Assembly (NCBI RefSeq): GCF_900117395.1
Contig: NZ_FPEG01000002.1
Location: 124,001 to 188,000 of the forward strand
Reading direction: 5' to 3'
Origin: Agrococcus sp. Marseille-P2731
Lineage (GTDB): Bacteria > Actinomycetota > Actinomycetes > Actinomycetales > Microbacteriaceae
Length of the DNA stretch: 64,000 bases
Of the stretch, positions 45,846 to 63,554 are shown piece by piece (within the stretch, counting starts at the first letter, position 1; each line of letters begins with the position of its first letter). The translations under genes and the position numbers were made by a program. The notes under the pieces were generated by a model. It did no database searches. It had not been told where the DNA came from and worked only from the letters and a program-made list of their open reading frames with translations.

Positions 45846-46076
45846 TCAGTCTTCGCGGGTGACGAGCACGTCGGCGCCGTCGAGGCGGATCGTCGTGCCG
45901 TCGTCGAGCTCGACGACGGGCAGGCCCTCCAGGAAGGTCAGCGTCCAGCGCCAGCTCGAGGTGTCAGCGCCCAGCTCGACGAGCGTGCGCTCCTCGTCGT
46001 CGATCGCCGCCCGCATCTCGACCGGCACCGCCGACGGCGGCTCGCCGCCGACCGCCCAGCGGGTGCCGATCTGCAT
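45846..46076 (-). CDS. small conserved protein downstream of valS
   Basis: A 76-residue protein of unknown function. It looks like a single beta-rich domain: WRWTLTFLEGLPVVELDDGT and TIRLDGADVLV would form strands, and the first third is charged. ATG 46076 overlaps the valS stop by one base, so translation is coupled to valS. The reading frame extends further upstream inside valS but that part is a shadow. Confidence 0.7.
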   Translation of the reverse strand: MQIGTRWAVGGEPPSAVPVEMRAAIDDEERTLVELGADTSSWRWTLTFLEGLPVVELDDGTTIRLDGADVLVTRED

Positions 46077-48694
46077 CAGGACTCCTCGAGCGCGATCTCG
46101 CGCACCGCGAGCTCGTCCGCGTCGACGAGCGTCAGCTCGCGGATGCGCCCGACCGCCCGCAGGTCGCCGGCCGCCGCCTCGAGGTGCTCGCGCAGCGCCG
46201 ACGGCACCGCGATGACCGCGGAGGCGACCGGCGTCTTCTGGCTGGCCTTCGCATCCGTCTTCGCCCTGCGGATGCCGATGAGCGCCTGGCCGACCGATGC
46301 GAGCATCCCCGTCGAGCCGATGCTGATCGCGCCTGTGGCGAGCGCCCCTGCACCCATCGCGTCGCTGCCGTTGCCGAGCTCGTCGGGCGTGGGCCACGCG
46401 GCGACGTGGATCGAGTCCTCGTGCGACCAGGACCAGACCTCCTCGGTCGCGAAGGGGAGGAAGGGCGCGAGCAGGCGCAGCTGCACGTCGATCGCGAGGC
46501 GCAGCGCGCCGATCGCCGAGCCGCGGCCGGGCTCGTCACCGGTGTAGGCGCGCTCCTTCACGAGCTCGAGGTAGTCGTCGCAGAAGGTCCAGAAGAAGCT
46601 CTCCGTGACCTCGAGCGCCTTCGCGTGGTCGTACGCCTCGAACGCTCGGGTGGCGGTGCGCACGACCTGCGCGAGCTCGCCGAGCATCTCGCGGTCGAGG
46701 CGCTCGGTCACCTCGCCCGGCGCGCCCTCCATCGAGAGCACGAACTTCGCGGCGTTCAGCACCTTCATCGCCAGGCGGCGCCCGATCTTGACCATCTTCG
46801 GGTTCTGCGGGTCGAGCGTCGCATCGACGCCGAGCCTCGACGACGCCGCCCAGTAGCGCACGCCGTCGGAGCCGTGGTCCTCGAGCATGCCGAGCGGCGT
46901 GACGACGTTGCCCTTCGACTTCGACATCTTCTTGCGGTCGGGGTCGAGGATCCAGCCCGAGAGCGCCGCGTGCTTCCAGGGCGCACCGCCGTCCTCGAAC
47001 ATCGAGCGCAGCAGCGTCGAGAAGAGCCAGGTACGGATGATGTCCTGGCCCTGCGGGCGCAGGTCGAAGGGCGTGATCTGCTGCCAGAGCGCCGAGTCGG
47101 CGGCCCAGCCGCCCGCGAGCTGCGGGGTGAGCGACGAGGTCGCCCAGGTGTCCATCACGTCGACCTCGCCGACGAAGCCGCCGGGCTGCCCGCGCTGCGC
47201 CTCGTCGAAGCCCTCCGGCACGTCGCTCGTCGGGTCCAGCGGCAGCTGCTCGGGCGTCGGCAGCAGCACACCGCCGGGCACGCGCTCACCCTCCGAGTCG
47301 AGCTGGTACCAGACGGGGATCGGCACGCCGAAGAAGCGCTGGCGCGAGATGAGCCAGTCGCCGTTGAGCCCGTGCACCCAGTTCTCGTAGCGCGTGCGCA
47401 TGTGCTCGGGGTGCCACGCGATCTCGCGGCCGAGCGACACGAGCCGCTCCTGCAGGCCCTCGTCGCGGCCGCCGTTCTTGATGTACCACTGCAGCGTCGA
47501 GACGATCTCGAGCGGCTTGTCGCCCTTCTCGAAGAACTTCACCGGGTGCGTGATCGTGCGCGGCTCGCCGACCATGCGGCCGGCGGCCTGCAGCAGCTCG
47601 ACGATCGTCTTCTTCGCGCTGAAGACCGTCTTGCCGGCCAGCTCTGCGTAGGCGGCCTTCGCCGCATCGCTCTCGAGCGCCTCGGGAGCCTCGGCCACGA
47701 AGCGGCCGTCGAAGCCGATCACCGAGCGGCTGGGCAGCTGCAGCTCGCGCCACCAGATCACGTCGGTGAGGTCGCCGAAGGTGCAGATCATCGCCACGCC
47801 CGTGCCCTTGTCGATCTGGGCGAGCTCGTGCTTGACGAAGGGCACCTCGACGCCGAACACCGGCGTGGTCACGGTGGTGCCGAACAGGTGCTGGTAGCGC
47901 GCGTCGTCCGGATGCGCGACCACGGCCACGCACGAGGCGAGCAGCTCCGGGCGCGTGGTGTCGATCCGCAGCTCGCCGTCCGCGCTCTCGAAGAGCAGCG
48001 TGTGATAGGCGCCCGGCTGCTCGCGGTCCTCGAGCTCGGCCTGGGCCACCGCCGTCCGGAACGTCACGTCCCACAGCGTCGGCGCATCCGCCTGGTACGC
48101 CTCGCCGCGCTCGAGGTTGCGCAGGAAGGCGAGCTGCGAGGTGCGCCGGGCGTCGTCGGAGATCGTGCGGTAGGACTGCTGCCAGTCGACCGAGAGGCCG
48201 AGGGTGCGCCAGAGGTGCTCGAACTTCTCCTCGTCCTCCTCGGTGAGGCGCTCGCAGAGCTCGATGAAGTTGCGGCGCGAGACGGGCAGCTGGTCCGCGG
48301 CCTTCGAGCCCTTGTTGTCGCCGCCCTCCTGCGGAGGCGTGAAGCCCTCGACGTAGGGGAGCGTGGGGTCGACGCGCACGCCGTAGTAGTTCTGCACGCG
48401 GCGCTCCGTCGGGAGGCCGTTGTCATCCCATCCCATGGGGTAGAAGACGCGCTTGCCGCGCATCCGCTGGTAGCGCGCGACGAGGTCGGTGTGCGTGTAG
48501 GAGAACACGTGGCCGACGTGCAGCGAGCCGGAGGCGGTCGGCGGGGGCGTGTCGATCGAGTAGATCGCCTCCCGGTCGAGGGCGGCGCCGTCGGCGTCGG
48601 TGCCGGCGAAGCGATAGGTGCCGGCCTCCTCCCATCGCTGCCCCCACTTCTGCTCGAGTCCTTCGAGGGCGGGGCGTTCGGGCATGGCGCTCAT
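46076..48694 (-). CDS. valS: valyl-tRNA synthetase
   Basis: An 872-residue class Ia synthetase. The HIGH signature is HVGH at 59-62 and KMSKS is at about 589-593 (KMSKSKGN). The editing domain lies about 200-340 and includes DTTRPELL. The C-terminus ends soon after the anticodon-binding domain and I see no long charged coiled-coil arm, unlike bacterial ValRS such as E. coli. ATG 48685 (MPERPAL) is an alternative start 3 codons downstream. In M. tuberculosis valS precedes folC and ndk, which here lie 12 kb away behind ileS. Confidence 0.96.
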   Translation of the reverse strand: MSAMPERPALEGLEQKWGQRWEEAGTYRFAGTDADGAALDREAIYSIDTPPPTASGSLHVGHVFSYTHTDLVARYQRMRGKRVFYPMGWDDNGLPTERRVQNYYGVRVDPTLPYVEGFTPPQEGGDNKGSKAADQLPVSRRNFIELCERLTEEDEEKFEHLWRTLGLSVDWQQSYRTISDDARRTSQLAFLRNLERGEAYQADAPTLWDVTFRTAVAQAELEDREQPGAYHTLLFESADGELRIDTTRPELLASCVAVVAHPDDARYQHLFGTTVTTPVFGVEVPFVKHELAQIDKGTGVAMICTFGDLTDVIWWRELQLPSRSVIGFDGRFVAEAPEALESDAAKAAYAELAGKTVFSAKKTIVELLQAAGRMVGEPRTITHPVKFFEKGDKPLEIVSTLQWYIKNGGRDEGLQERLVSLGREIAWHPEHMRTRYENWVHGLNGDWLISRQRFFGVPIPVWYQLDSEGERVPGGVLLPTPEQLPLDPTSDVPEGFDEAQRGQPGGFVGEVDVMDTWATSSLTPQLAGGWAADSALWQQITPFDLRPQGQDIIRTWLFSTLLRSMFEDGGAPWKHAALSGWILDPDRKKMSKSKGNVVTPLGMLEDHGSDGVRYWAASSRLGVDATLDPQNPKMVKIGRRLAMKVLNAAKFVLSMEGAPGEVTERLDREMLGELAQVVRTATRAFEAYDHAKALEVTESFFWTFCDDYLELVKERAYTGDEPGRGSAIGALRLAIDVQLRLLAPFLPFATEEVWSWSHEDSIHVAAWPTPDELGNGSDAMGAGALATGAISIGSTGMLASVGQALIGIRRAKTDAKASQKTPVASAVIAVPSALREHLEAAAGDLRAVGRIRELTLVDADELAVREIALEES

Positions 48695-56561: not shown

Positions 56562-57430
56562 CCACCATCACCCCCAACCCCGCACCCGCCGGAGGGCCCG
56601 CGCCCGCCGGAAGCCTGGCCGGCCGCCCCGGCCGCTGGATCAGCATCCTCATCATCGTGCTCGGCACGATCGGCATCGTCTACGGCATCGGCAGCGGCGT
56701 CGTGCGCGGTGTCTCTGCCCACGCGGCCACCGCCCACGAGTACACGGCGGATGCCGCGGGCCTCGGGGAGCTGCGGATCGACAGCTCTGCAGCCGCGTTC
56801 GAGATCCGCTTCGGCGACGTCGACGAGGCGCAGCTGTCGGTCGCGACCGATGGCGGCCCCGCACAGCAGTGGCGGCTCGAGCGGGAGGGCGACGCGCTCG
56901 TGATCGACACCGGCCGTCAGTGGCGCTGGTTCGGCCTCGGCATCGTGCTCGGCGACCGGGTCGGCGAGGAGCGCGCGATCCTGACCCTGCCGGCAGCCCT
57001 CGAGCGCAGCGAGCTCGGCCTCGACGTGGGCGTCTCGGCGGGCAGCCTCGACGCCGCAGGCGACTGGGGCGCAGTGCTCGTCGACCTGAGCGCCGGCAGC
57101 ATCGACCTCTCCGGCAGCGCGGCGTCGCTCGACGTCGAGGTCTCCGCGGGGGAGGCGCGCATCGACGTCGCCACCGACGGCGCCGTCGACCTGGGCGTCA
57201 GCGCCGGCCGCGTCATCGGCGCCCTGACGGGCGAGCAGCCGGCGTCGATCACGGCGCAGGCGAGCGCCGGCAGCATCGAGCTGGACATCCCGGACGGGGC
57301 GTACGCCGTGACCGAGCGCACCTCGGCCGGCGACAGCGACGTGCGGGTCGTCGACGACCCGAGCGCCGCATCCACCATCGACGTCGACGTGAGCGCCGGC
57401 AGCGTGCTGCTGCGCGGCAGCACGCGCTGA
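56558..57430 (+). CDS. membrane-anchored DUF4097-like beta-helical protein
   Basis: A 290-residue protein. A Pro/Ala/Gly-rich N-terminus and one membrane helix ([17 protein letters not shown]) precede a repetitive domain in which SAGSL/SAGSI/SAGE turns recur about every 18-25 residues, as in DUF4097/DUF2807 single-stranded beta-helix proteins. It overlaps the regulator stop as ATGA. Similar proteins accompany LiaS/DesK-like systems and may act as feedback sensors at the membrane; the role here is inferred from position. Confidence 0.8.
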
Positions 57431-57484
57431 TCCCCGGATGCGGCCAGCAGTGCCCAGGCAGTGACGGTGGCCGGATCGGCGCGG

Positions 57485-57490
57485 TAGGAT
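57485..57490 (+). promoter_or_regulatory. -10 box (TAGGAT) for the ileS operon
   Basis: TAGGAT lies about 7 nt before the start of the T-box leader. It implies a leader of about 220 nt before ileS. Confidence 0.55.
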
Positions 57491-57496
57491 CGACCT

Positions 57497-57714
57497 ACAC
57501 GCACCGATCCGGCCATCACCGGGGAGCGGTCGGGAGAACGGCTCTTCGGCACCGAGAGGTGCAGGGGCGCTCAGTAGATCCGAACGGGGCAGGCCCGTCA
57601 CAGCCGTCGCACGAAGCGGTGACCTGCCGGGGAGACCCGACAGGTCGCAAGCGGGGTGGTACCGCGCGAGAGCGTCCCCGCATCCGAGAACCACGAGGAT
57701 GCAGGAGACCCAGC
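57497..57714 (+). promoter_or_regulatory. T-box riboswitch, isoleucine-specific, ultrashort stem I type
   Basis: The T-box core GGGGTGGTACCGCG is at 57653-57666. Upstream, a very short stem I, CCGG/CCGG, carries the isoleucine specifier ATC (57515-57517) in its loop. CTCAGTAGATCCGAACGGGG, the conserved stem II region, follows at 57570. The sequence around the start, GCAGGAGACCCAGCGTG, can be sequestered, which fits the translational actinobacterial ileS T-boxes. Uncharged tRNA-Ile should open the ribosome binding site. Confidence 0.93.
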
Positions 57715-60700
57715 GTGACCGAGACCCAGCGCTATCCGCTCGACGCCGACCGACCGGTGGTGGCCAGCCCCGACCTGCCCGCGATCGAGACGGGCATCCT
57801 CGCCTTCTGGAAGGGCGACGATACCTTCCGCGCCTCGGTCGAGCAGCGCCAGGGGTGCACCGAGTGGGTGTTCTACGACGGCCCGCCCTTCGCCAACGGC
57901 CTGCCGCACTACGGCCACCTCCTGACCGGCTACGCGAAGGACGTCTTCCCGCGCTTCCAGACCATGCGCGGCAAGCAGGTGCCCCGCGTCTTCGGCTGGG
58001 ACACCCACGGCCTGCCCGCGGAGCTCGAGGCGATGAAGCAGCTCGGCATCACCGAGAAGGCAGAGATCGAGGCGATGGGCGTCGACGTCTTCAACGAGAA
58101 GGCGCGCGAGTCGGTGCTGCAGTACGTCGACGAGTGGCAGGACTACGTGACCCGCCAGGCCCGCTGGGTCGACTTCGACGGCGGCTACAAGACGCTCGAC
58201 CTGAGCTACATGGAGAGCGTCATCTGGGCGTTCAAGGCGCTGCACGACAAGGGCCTGGCCTACGAGGGCTACCGCGTGCTGCCCTACTGCTGGCGCGACG
58301 AGACGCCGCTGTCGAACCACGAGCTGCGCATGGACGACGACGTCTACCAGGATCGCCAGGACACCACGCTGACCGTCACCTTCCCGCTCACGGGCGAGCG
58401 AGCGGATGCGCTGCAGCTGTCGGGCGTCAAGGCCCTGGCCTGGACGACGACGCCGTGGACGCTGCCCACGAACCTCGCGCTCGCGGTCGGCCCCGAGATC
58501 GCCTACGCGATCGTGCCCGCGGGGCCGAGCGGCACGACGGCCCCCTCCGCCGACGGCTCCGAGGGCTCCTTCCTGCTCGCGGCCGACACCGTCGCGGCGC
58601 ACGCGAAGGATCTCGGCTACGCCTCCGCCGAGGAGGCGGTCGCCGCCGTCGAGCGCACGCTGCCTGGCAGCGAGCTCGCAGGCGTCACCTACGAGCCCAT
58701 CTTCGACTTCTTCGCCGACGCATCCGTCTGGGGCACCGAGCACGCCTTCCAGATCCTGGTCGACGCCTACGTCGCCACCGGTGAGGGCACCGGCATCGTG
58801 CACCAGGCGCCCGCCTACGGCGAGGACGACCAGCGGGTCACGAACGCCGCCGGCATCCCGACGATCCTGTCGGTCGACGACGGAGGCCGGTTCCTCGACG
58901 TCGTCGCACCGGTCGCGGGGCAGCAGGTCTTCGACGCCAACAAGCAGCTCTCGAAGCTGCTGAAGGATGCCGGTCGCGTGCTGCGCCAGGCGAGCTACGT
59001 GCACTCCTACCCGCACTGCTGGCGGTGCCGCAACCCGCTGATCTACAAGGCGGTCTCGAGCTGGTTCGTGAAGGTCACCGACATCAAGGCCGATCTGCTC
59101 GCCGCCAACGAGCAGATCACCTGGGTGCCGGAGAACGTCAAGCACGGGCAGTTCGGCAAGTGGCTCGAGGGCGCGCGCGACTGGTCGATCAGCCGCAACC
59201 GCTACTGGGGCAGCCCCATCCCGGTGTGGAAGAGCGACGACCCCAACCACCCGCGCATCGACGTCTACGGCTCGCTCGACGAGCTCGAGCGCGACTTCGG
59301 CGTGCGCCCGACCGACCTGCACCGGCCGGCGATCGACGAGCTCACGCGACCGAACCCCGACGACCCGACGGGGCGCTCGACGATGCGCCGCATCCCCGAC
59401 GTGCTCGACGTCTGGTTCGACTCGGGCTCCATGCCCTTCGCGCAGTTCCACTACCCCTTCGAGAACGAGCAGTGGTTCGAGGAGCACAGCCCCGCCGACT
59501 ACATCGTCGAGTACATCGGGCAGACGCGCGGGTGGTTCTACGTCATGCACGTGCTCTCGGTCGCGCTCTTCGGCCGGCCGGCGTTCGAGAACGTCATCAG
59601 CCACGGCATCATCCTCGGAGACGACGGCTTCAAGGCCTCGAAGTCGCGCCGCAACTACCCCGACGTGAACGAGTCCTTCGACGCCTACGGCTCGGATGCG
59701 GTGCGCTGGAACCTGATGCAGGGCTCGATCCTCAGGGGCGGCAACTTCGTCGTCTCCGAGGAGGGCATCCGCGAGGCGCTGCGGCAGTTCCACCTGCCGC
59801 TGTGGTCGACCTGGTACTTCTTCTCCACCTACGCGAACCGCGCCGCCGACGGCGCGCCCTACCTCGCCGAGCGCTCCACCGCATCCGCCGACGTGCTCGA
59901 CCGCTACATCCTCGCCAAGCTGCGCGAGACGGTCGAGACGGTGACGGCTGCGCTCGAGCGGCTCGACGCGACGGGTGCGACCTGGGCGGTGCGCGAGTTC
60001 CTCGACGTCCTGACCAACTGGTACGTGCGGCGCTCGCGCGACCGGTTCTGGGCTGGCGTGCGCTCCGACGGCTCGGGAGCCGAGGCGTTCGACACGCTCT
60101 TCACGGTGCTCGAGACGCTCACGCGCATCGCCGCACCGCTCTCCCCGCTCGTGACCGAGGAGGTCTGGAAGGGCCTGACCGGCGGTCGCTCGGTGCACCT
60201 GACCGACTGGCCCGCAGTGGCCGATGGCGGTGCGGACGAGCTGCCGGCCGACCCCGCGCTCGTGGCGCAGATGGATGCGGTGCGCGCGATCGCGAGCGTC
60301 GGCAACGCGCTGCGCAAGCAGGCGAAGAAGCGCGTGCGCCTGCCGCTGCCGCGCCTGACGGTCGTCGGCGCTGTCGACGTCTCGGCGTTCACCGGCGTGC
60401 TCCGCGACGAGCTGAACGTGCGAGAGGTCGCGCTGGAGGCCGCGGGCGACGACGCGCTCGAGCGCTACGGCATCTCGCGCCGCCTGCAGGTCAACGCGCG
60501 CGCCGCGGGGCCGCGACTCGGCAAGGACGTGCAGCGGGCGATCCAGGCGGCGCGCGCCGGCGACTGGTCGGTGGATGGCGACACGGTGACGGCGGGCGGC
60601 ATCGCGCTCGTCGAGGGGGAGTACGAGCTCGCCCTCGAGGTCGCCGACGAGAGCGCGGCGGTCGGGTTCCTGCCCGCTGGCGGCTTCGTCGTGCTCGACA

Positions 60701-61005
60701 CCGCGACGACCCCCGAGCTCGAGGCCGAGGGCCTCGCGCGCGACGTCGTCCGCGCCGTGCAGTCGGCGCGGAAGGACGCCGGGCTCGACGTGAGCGACCG
60801 CATCCGCCTCACCCTCGGCTCCGACAGCCACGGCGTCGCAGCGCTCGAGGCGAACGCCGAGCTCGTCAAGGGCGAGACGCTCGCCGTCGACCTCGCCGTC
60901 GAGCGCGTCGACGACGCCGCTGGCGAGCTCGCCGACGGGCGCACCGCGCACCGCGTCGGGGACGGCTCGCCGCTGGCCATCACGATCGAGAGGGCAGGCG
61001 CATGA
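57715..61005 (+). CDS. ileS: isoleucyl-tRNA synthetase (eukaryotic-like type)
   Basis: A 1096-residue class Ia synthetase. HIGH is represented by HYGH at 65-68 and KMSKS by KASKS at 640-644. The order of editing domain (about 190-400), [14 protein letters not shown] and a long C-terminal domain is that of the eukaryotic-like IleRS usual in actinobacteria. This type is often mupirocin-resistant. GTG 57715 lies 7 nt after a CAGGAG site within the T-box leader. It overlaps folC by 4 nt. Confidence 0.96.
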
Positions 61006-62558
61006 GCGACGAGCTCGCGGGCGAGACGCCCGACATCGACGACCGCATCCTCGCCTCGCTCGAGCACGCCGAGGCGGCGGAGGCCGCCTATCAGGCGCTG
61101 CTCGAGCGAGCGGGGGAGCAGGCGGTCGAGCCGCGCATCGAGGCGACCCGGCGCGCCGTCGAGCTGCTGGGCGACCCGCAGCGGGCGTTCCGCATCATCC
61201 ACATCACCGGCACCAACGGCAAGGGCTCGACGGCCCGCATCGCCGATGCGCTGCTGCGCGCGCACGGCCTGCGGACGGGCGTGCTCACGAGCCCGCACCT
61301 CGAGCGCGTCAACGAGCGCATCACGATCGACGGCGAGCCCGTCTCCGACGAGGCCTTCGCGCGCGGCTACGAGGACATCGAGCCGTTCCTCCAGATGGTC
61401 GACGCAGAGCTGGCCGAGCGGGGTGAGCGCCGGCTGACGTTCTTCGAGGCGTTCACGGTGCTCGCCTTCGCGATCATGGCGGATGCGCCGGTCGACGTCG
61501 CGGTGCTGGAGGTCGGCATGGGCGGCACCTGGGATTCGACGAACGTCGCCGACGGCGACGTCGCGGTCATCACGCCAATCGCCCTCGACCACACGAACCG
61601 GCTCGGCTCGACGGTCGAGGCGATCGCGCGCGAGAAGGCCGGCATCATCAAGCCCGACGCGATCGTCGTCTCTGCAGCCCAGGCGCCGGAGGCGCTCGCC
61701 GTGCTCGAGGCCCGCGCCGCGGAGGTGGGCGCGCGGCTGCTGCTCGACGGGCGCGACTTCTCGCTCGTGGAGCAGTCGGTCGCGGTCGGCGGCCAGCTGC
61801 TCACCGTGCGCGGCCTCGCGGCCGAGTACATCGACCAGCTCGTGCCGCTCATGGGCGCGCACCAGGGGCGCAACGCCGCCCTCGCGCTCGTGGCGGTCGA
61901 GGCGTTCCTCGGCGGCGGCTCGCAGCCGATGACCGCCGAGGTGCTCGCCGACGGCTTCGCGGCGGCGACCTCGCCCGGCAGGCTCGACACCATCGGCGCG
62001 GACCCCCTCGTCATCGCCGACGCCGCGCACAACCCGCACGGCGCCGCCTCGCTGCGCGCCGCGCTCGGGGAGTACTTCGGGCTCGAGCGCGTCACGCTCG
62101 TGCTCGGCGTGCTGGTCGGGAAGGACGCGACGGGTGTGCTCACGGAGCTCGAGAGCGTGATCGACGAGGTCGTCGTGACGCAGTCGACCTCCGAGCGCGC
62201 GCTCGACGCCGACGAGCTCGCCGCGCAGGCGGTCGCGGTGCTCGGCGCCGAGCGCGTGCTCGTCGAGACCGACCTGGCGACCGCGGTCGAGACCGCGCGC
62301 GACGCGGCGGCCGACCGCCAGGGCGCCGTGGTCGTGACCGGCTCGGTCACGCTGCTGGGCGACGTGATCGGTCACGCCCGTGAGGCGGGCTGGTTGCTGC
62401 GGCCGGATGCGCGCCGGCAGGCGGCGACGGTGCAGCTGGATGCGCCGGAGCTGGAGGCCGAGGGCTTCGGTGGTGCCGGCATCGCTGCGGCCGGCCTCGA
62501 CGCGGGCGACATCGACGGTGTCGGAGCTGCCGAAACCGGCGAGGAGGACGACCGATGA
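61002..62558 (+). CDS. folC: folylpolyglutamate synthase / dihydrofolate synthase
   Basis: A 518-residue Mur-ligase-like enzyme that adds glutamates to folates. The P-loop is [10 protein letters not shown] (68-77), and [23 protein letters not shown] and DAAHNPHG are the other active-site segments. The C-terminus extends about 40 residues beyond the family core and is Ala/Gly/Glu-rich. It overlaps ileS and the DUF4233 gene by 4 nt each, so it falls under the T-box. Confidence 0.95.
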
Positions 62559-62959
62559 GCGACGAGACCCCGACACCCGCGCGGGCCCGCAAGCCCCGCC
62601 CGCAGCGCGGCGCCATGGAGGCGCTGCTGCGCATCGTGCACACCCTCGAGGTGTGCGCGCTCGCCTTCGGCGCGCTGGCCGCCTGGGGCGTCTCGCGCGA
62701 CTGGCCGCAGCCGGTGGCGTTCGGGGCCGTCGCGCTGCTGCTCATCCTCAGCATGCGCGTGCTCGGGCGGCCGTGGGGCTGGATCGTCAGCCTCGTCGCG
62801 CAGATCGCGGTGGGCCTGCTGGTGCTCGTCGAGGTGGTCTGGGGCCTCGTCGCGCTCGTGTTCATCATCCTGTGGATCTTCTGCTTCGTGAAGGCGCGCG
62901 GCATCGAGCACCGCCGCCTCGCTGCAGGCCTCGACCCGCGCGGAGCCCCCGGCACCTGA
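62555..62959 (+). CDS. DUF4233 membrane protein
   Basis: A 134-residue protein with a basic N-terminus and four hydrophobic helices. The family has no known function and usually lies between folC and ndk in actinobacteria, as here. The ATG overlaps the folC stop as ATGA. Confidence 0.88.
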
Positions 62960-63025
62960 CCCGCGCCTCCGCCCTTCCGGCCGGCGCCGCGCGCAGTCGC
63001 CCGGAGATTCTCCGGACCCGAGAGG

Positions 63026-63050
63026 CGCCGGCTGGACCATCCAGCCGGCG
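63026..63050. terminator. hairpin between the folC operon and ndk
   Basis: A perfect 10-bp stem CGCCGGCTGG / CCAGCCGGCG has a 5-nt loop ACCAT. No T-run follows. It may end the ileS-folC transcript. Confidence 0.5.
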
Positions 63051-63130
63051 ACCCGCTCCGGTGTGGAAGCTCCGGGCGGTCGCGCGAGACGGCACGCTCG
63101 GCCGCGGTCGGGGCGGGTCGACGTGCTCGG

Positions 63131-63136
63131 TACGCT
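63131..63136 (+). promoter_or_regulatory. -10 box (TACGCT) for ndk
   Basis: TACGCT is 7 nt before ATG 63144, with no ribosome binding site. An in-frame GTG at 63138 is directly next to the box and less likely. Confidence 0.5.
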
Positions 63137-63143
63137 GGTGAGC

Positions 63144-63554
63144 ATGCAGAGCACCCTCGTCCTCATCAAGCCCGACGGCGTCCAGCGACAGCTGACGGGC
63201 ACCATCCTCGCCCGCATCGAGGCGAAGGGCTACGTCATCGCCGACCTGCGCCTGGTGCAGCCCGACAAGGCGCTGCTCGAGGAGCACTACGCCGAGCACC
63301 AGGGCAAGCCCTTCTTCGAGCCGCTCGTCGAGTTCATGCTCTCCGGTCCCTCGGTGGCGATCCGCCTCGAGGGCGACCGGGTCATCGAGGGCTTCCGCTC
63401 GCTCGCCGGCACGACCGACCCGACCACGGCCGCGCCCGGCACGATCCGCGGCGACCTGGGCCGCGATTGGGGCCTCAAGGTGCAGCAGAACCTCGTGCAC
63501 GGCTCCGACTCCGAGGAGTCGGCGGCGCGCGAGCTCGCGCTCTGGTTCTCCTGA
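63144..63554 (+). CDS. ndk: nucleoside diphosphate kinase
   Basis: A 136-residue kinase that equalises nucleoside triphosphate pools. [14 protein letters not shown] at the N-terminus and the phospho-His H119 in [12 protein letters not shown] are diagnostic. The start at ATG 63144 gives the standard family length. Confidence 0.97.

Follow-up and report, generated by a model that had tools for sequence, protein, structure and literature searches.

A probable translational T-box riboswitch ahead of ileS, and its linkage to folC, in Agrococcus sp. Marseille-P2731

The window (the whole 64,000-nt stretch of Agrococcus sp. Marseille-P2731 DNA that was analysed) carries ileS, folC and a gene for a DUF4233 protein in that order, with a 218-nt leader (57497-57714) 5' of ileS. 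The closest match to its IleS was that of A. baldri (91% in the best segment). The ileS stop overlaps the folC start by 4 nt (ATGA, 61002-61005), as does the folC stop with the DUF4233 start (62555-62558); both 4-nt overlaps named in a preliminary description of this DNA are thus real in the sequence. The features are:

57461-57490, plus strand: likely promoter, GTGACG-N18-TAGGAT (conservation among Agrococcus leaders; below the threshold of a consensus scan)
57509-57522, plus strand: stem I, ultrashort at 4 bp, with CCATCA as its apical loop (compensatory changes in other families)
57530-57583, plus strand: stem II, base 57530-57533 with 57580-57583 (covariation, helices 2 and 3)
57584-57606, plus strand: stem IIA hairpin (57584-57598) and IIB pseudoknot (covariation, helices 4 and 5)
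57614-57650, plus strand: stem III, 57619-57626 with 57641-57648 (covariation, helix 6; Rfam alignment)
57651-57681, plus strand: antisequestrator with the UGGUACC T-box bulge at 57657-57663 (Rfam alignment; covariation, helices 7 and 8)
57677-57705, plus strand: sequestrator, 57677-57685 with 57697-57705, one mismatch (fit to its own partner; computed energies)
57703-57707, plus strand: ileS Shine-Dalgarno AGGAG (read in the sequence)
57715-61005, plus strand: ileS, isoleucine--tRNA ligase, GTG start (NCBIfam TIGR00392, 791.7 bits, cut-off 621.4; also Pfam)
61002-62558, plus strand: folC (TIGR01499, 363.3 bits, cut-off 162.65; also Pfam)
62555-62959, plus strand: DUF4233 gene (PF14017, 34.4 bits, cut-off 27; Pfam alone, no NCBIfam match)
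46076-48694, minus strand: valS, alt_ValS type (NF000540, 1396 bits, cut-off 900)

This alt_ValS-type valS of the host genome sits away from folC.

The analysis confirmed that 57497-57714 is the T-box leader of ileS: stem I is ultrashort, at 4 bp, the specifier is AUC, and stems II, IIA/B and III are present. Its elements follow in the order stem I, stem II, IIA/B pseudoknot, stem III, T-box bulge with antisequestrator and, last, a sequestrator that reaches the Shine-Dalgarno and covers its first Gs. The strands of stem I (CCGG at 57509-57512 with CCGG at 57519-57522) enclose a loop with the specifier ATC (AUC) at 57515-57517. As in class II T-boxes, stem I is short, a 4-bp stem and an apical loop, without the elbow-binding double T-loop. 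Within the stem II region, CAGTAGAT (57572-57579) was read as the S-turn strand, a label taken from PMC7778990. In the IIB pseudoknot, GG (57592-57593) pairs with CC (57604-57605); the third IIB pair is absent here and broken in 29 of 42 aligned leaders, this one included. Stem III is flanked by AAGCG and AA, the same motif as in PMC7778990.

The likely promoter lies just upstream. It consists of a -10-like box, TAGGAT (57485-57490), and, 18 nt from it, GTGACG (57461-57466), which resembles a -35 box weakly; together they place the probable transcription start near 57497. Among 24 aligned Agrococcus leaders, TAnnAT occupied the -10 place in 22 and GTGACG was present in 11.

The structure was supported by covariation in an alignment of 42 leaders (the window's and 41, chosen without a fixed rule, of 59 filtered family leaders). 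These came from 80 family loci, three of which were lost to the search pattern (L007, L048 and L066), 59 of the other 77 passing a length and redundancy filter. In the alignment 92.2% of cells paired, against 82.6% in shuffled and 35-50% in slid alignments, a percentage that leans towards the structure since the pairs counted were set by the analyst, partly from the consensus fold and known anatomy. Covariation was 0.291 against 0.124 in shuffles, none of 500 of which reached it. Helices 5 (76.0%) and 6 (78.9%) were the weakest.

Stem I hardly varies within the family leaders. It was absent from the unconstrained fold of the whole leader and from the consensus fold, where stem IIA takes up its 3' strand. 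Evidence for it comes from 14 leaders (13 from other families), whose stem I is paired in 95.5% of cells. Two of its pairs have changed on both sides; both changes are from L119 and L122, members of one family, and may therefore be a single event. A compensated pair was also seen by eye in L067. Covariation of stem I in the 14 leaders was 0.309 against 0.066 shuffled (1 of 500 shuffles reached it), while 107 of 500 did as well on measures based on counts of pairs or pair types. Because stem I of L123 needs a shift, the set was also scored without it, giving slightly higher values: 100% paired, covariation 0.327 against 0.049 (0 of 500), and 53 of 500 for the counting measures. Anatomy and covariation agree with the preliminary description, which had proposed an ultrashort stem I T-box reading ATC from a 4-bp stem.

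That description had also proposed a covariance search with T-box models. Rfam RF00230 gave the leader 25.8 bits, far below its gathering score of 93, and aligned only the 3' part (57614-57679). On the 64,000-nt window Rfam reported two tRNAs and no T-box above cut-off, and the T-box search of the host genome returned no match at E 0.001, although it was positive for 5 of 14 genomes run as controls. In TBDB, RF00230 serves for class I while class II has a model of its own (PMC7778990), so the low score lowers only a claim of a class I T-box. Our own covariance model, built from the 42 leaders, gave 123.9 bits and no second match in the genome at E 1, with scores computed for 150 of the 4364 candidates from a first look; the 123.9 bits are not independent because the leader is one of the training sequences. 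Strong matches of this model before ileS in other families provide independent support. MicroRNA and radC matches from the Rfam search of the leader were dismissed as chance.

The same model matched in 75 of the 79 genomes of the host's order and, at E 0.001, in 78 of 198 genomes of the phylum, many of these matches being weak. An IleS-like gene lay beside the match in 25 of 30 inspected loci (29 from the phylum and the window); for three of the 25 the likeness was only about 34%. Among 104 ileS loci, in which some genomes are counted twice, 94 had the strict stem I pattern with a T-box; nine more had T-boxes with a slightly changed stem I (by eye) and one (L066) had none. The specifier was ATC in all but L066, though the search pattern largely demanded ATC. 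Chance pairing of GC-rich sequence instead of a T-box, for which one could cite the lack of an Rfam T-box call, can practically be dismissed given the covariation in 42 leaders, which speaks strongly against it, and a T-box in 103 of 104 ileS loci and 75 of 79 order genomes.

In L066, no T-box was seen by eye in the 420 nt upstream of ileS (upstream of position 1909 in that locus); a -10-like box lies just before the start, and this ileS is possibly leaderless. T-box-like matches with no IleS match alongside occurred in distant members of the phylum (L131, L134, L136, L139 and L140).

The anatomy of the leader is established; tRNA binding, switching, co-transcription of the genes and an influence on folC, if any, are inferred. 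The leader is very probably (about 0.93) a class II, translational T-box riboswitch that controls ileS, with folC and the DUF4233 gene probably co-transcribed and at most partly coupled. Uncharged tRNA-Ile(GAU) would pair at two places, through its anticodon to the AUC of stem I and through its ACCA end to UGGU, stabilizing the antisequestrator and freeing the Shine-Dalgarno; with charged tRNA the sequestrator would remain and translation of ileS would drop. The specifier matches the downstream ileS, and the UGGU bulge, the UGGN expected of a T-box, matches the ACCA end of the tRNA-Ile(GAU) of the host genome, which has A before CCA (10 stretches examined, not all tRNA genes). Antisequestrator and sequestrator share 57677-57681 and are thus mutually exclusive; their computed energies are nearly equal (-12.7 and -12.3 kcal/mol). 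The exchange of the two over the Shine-Dalgarno, as in class II, is read from sequence and computed energy only.

Sequestration was scored in 75 leaders (the window's and 74 of the 80 family loci; start codons were set by rule and at least one, in L004, looks wrong). The score of leaders with their own start region was 15.6, compared with 14.26 for partners swapped between species (sd 0.28; none of the 200 swaps exceeded 15.06) and 12.3 for shuffled letters. As the leaders are related and not independent, this fit is support and not proof. Transcription attenuation is the mode of most annotated T-boxes (PMC7583486), but it is very improbable here: the alternative hairpin base-pairs to part of the Shine-Dalgarno, and no terminator-like site was found in 57300-63300, which is weak evidence since 0.7 would be expected in shuffles. 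The leader thus most likely acts on translation, as had been suggested from the lack of a visible terminator.

The leader belongs to the known class of actinobacterial translational T-boxes and is not new in kind. An actinobacterial translational ileS T-box was reportedly described by Sherwood in 2015, and Leifsonia is a member of the host's family. T-boxes before ileS with hairpins sequestering the Shine-Dalgarno were described for several Actinobacteria in 2005 (PMC1262725, a paper whose genome list includes Leifsonia), and the same class is covered by PMC7583486. Compared with those of PMC1262725, the present leader is alike in its ileS target, absence of a terminator and Shine-Dalgarno-sequestering hairpin, with no difference of kind seen; its GCATCC/GGATGC sequestrator is a local trait, shared by most Agrococcus leaders. 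The ileS T-boxes of Nocardia farcinica and Mycobacterium tuberculosis, with structures 6UFM and 6UFG (PMC7583486), have in common with it, as described, ileS, stem II with IIA/B and the translational class. How such T-boxes work, their structures and a model for class II are treated in PMC7583486, PMC10651847 and PMC7778990. The T-box itself is an ordinary switch, one more translational T-box confirmed that Rfam's T-box model leaves uncalled; its linkage to folC is mildly interesting.

Overlapping stop and start codons, as found here, are expected of a translationally coupled ileS-folC-DUF4233 operon. If ribosomes that terminate on ileS reinitiate at the folC start overlapping its stop, the T-box would also set FolC and DUF4233, and isoleucine starvation would raise folate glutamylation. 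This extension is tentative, its chances somewhat below even. A folC match lay 3' of ileS in 80 of 80 family loci, with the 4-nt overlap, in the overlap frame, in 70; the DUF4233/folC overlap was present in 54 of the 62 loci that allowed the test, leaving 18 aside. On the other hand, folC has signals of its own. In 72 loci whose ileS stop reads ATGA or GTGA (L009 and L035 being without folC in frame), a Shine-Dalgarno-like run of at least 4 nt preceded folC in 65 (90%), against 20% in the ileS interior; for runs of at least 5 nt the values were 46% and 9%. Around its start, folC was also more open than background (unpaired 0.43 against 0.37; 72 and 438 stretches; p ~1e-5, relatedness ignored). 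No folC promoter was found by the consensus scan, which also missed the likely ileS promoter and so leaves room for one.

Staphylococcus aureus offers a parallel: in its valS-folC operon (PMC5094136) a T-box precedes a gene for a branched-chain synthetase, with folC next, which lends the coupling some precedent. That operon differs in having valS and not ileS, in transcript attenuation and in additional promoters of folC itself; these promoters count against coupling. As judged from sequence, the evidence favours folC initiation that is at least partly independent, against strict coupling; control by the T-box of folC, the gene behind ileS, is plausible. Of the proposal that starvation alters folate glutamylation through coupled translation, the conserved overlap stands; the folC Shine-Dalgarno and accessible start weigh against the rest.

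Across the order, the folC alignment starts 3.2-3.7 kb past the T-box, and so within 4.2 kb, in 46 of 79 genomes, the gene between being verified as ileS solely for those order genomes that fell into the phylum sample (5 of 5). In the other 33, no folC close behind the T-box was found, which weakens the case for coupling: folC lies 4.3-22 kb past the T-box in 18, four have no T-box match, two no folC match, and in nine the two are apart or on separate contigs. An Ile/Val-type synthetase was found upstream of folC in 28 of 30 folC loci, the exceptions being L156 (little upstream sequence) and L163. Outside the order, folC follows valS in all seven loci classified (of 23), six with an ordinary ValS and one with alt_ValS; ValS is the best fit to these seven pieces, but they are fragments below the curated cut-offs. 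Nine genomes of the same class but of other orders had a T-box match, and in none of them was folC beside it (far away on one contig in five, on other contigs in four).

It is conceivable, though unlikely, that folC came behind T-box-led ileS instead of valS across the order and was kept because isoleucyl-tRNA charging usefully sets folate glutamylation. If so, capture of folC by T-boxes that read branched-chain tRNAs would have happened twice, the other case being the S. aureus valS-folC operon. In the literature searched, with subscription papers mostly outside its scope, we found no report of an ileS-folC linkage and no paper on a T-box in Microbacteriaceae. The widely kept linkage poses the question of whether an amino-acid starvation signal reaches folate metabolism.

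An inverted repeat (57468-57483 with 57500-57515) spans the -10 box and stem I. Its left arm is present in 6 of 24 Agrococcus leaders and occurs in the genome exactly once, with one further match at three mismatches; the 6 of 24 leaders and the single exact copy rule the repeat out as a regulon site or a general part of the switch. RNA reading through from upstream could pair with the specifier stem.
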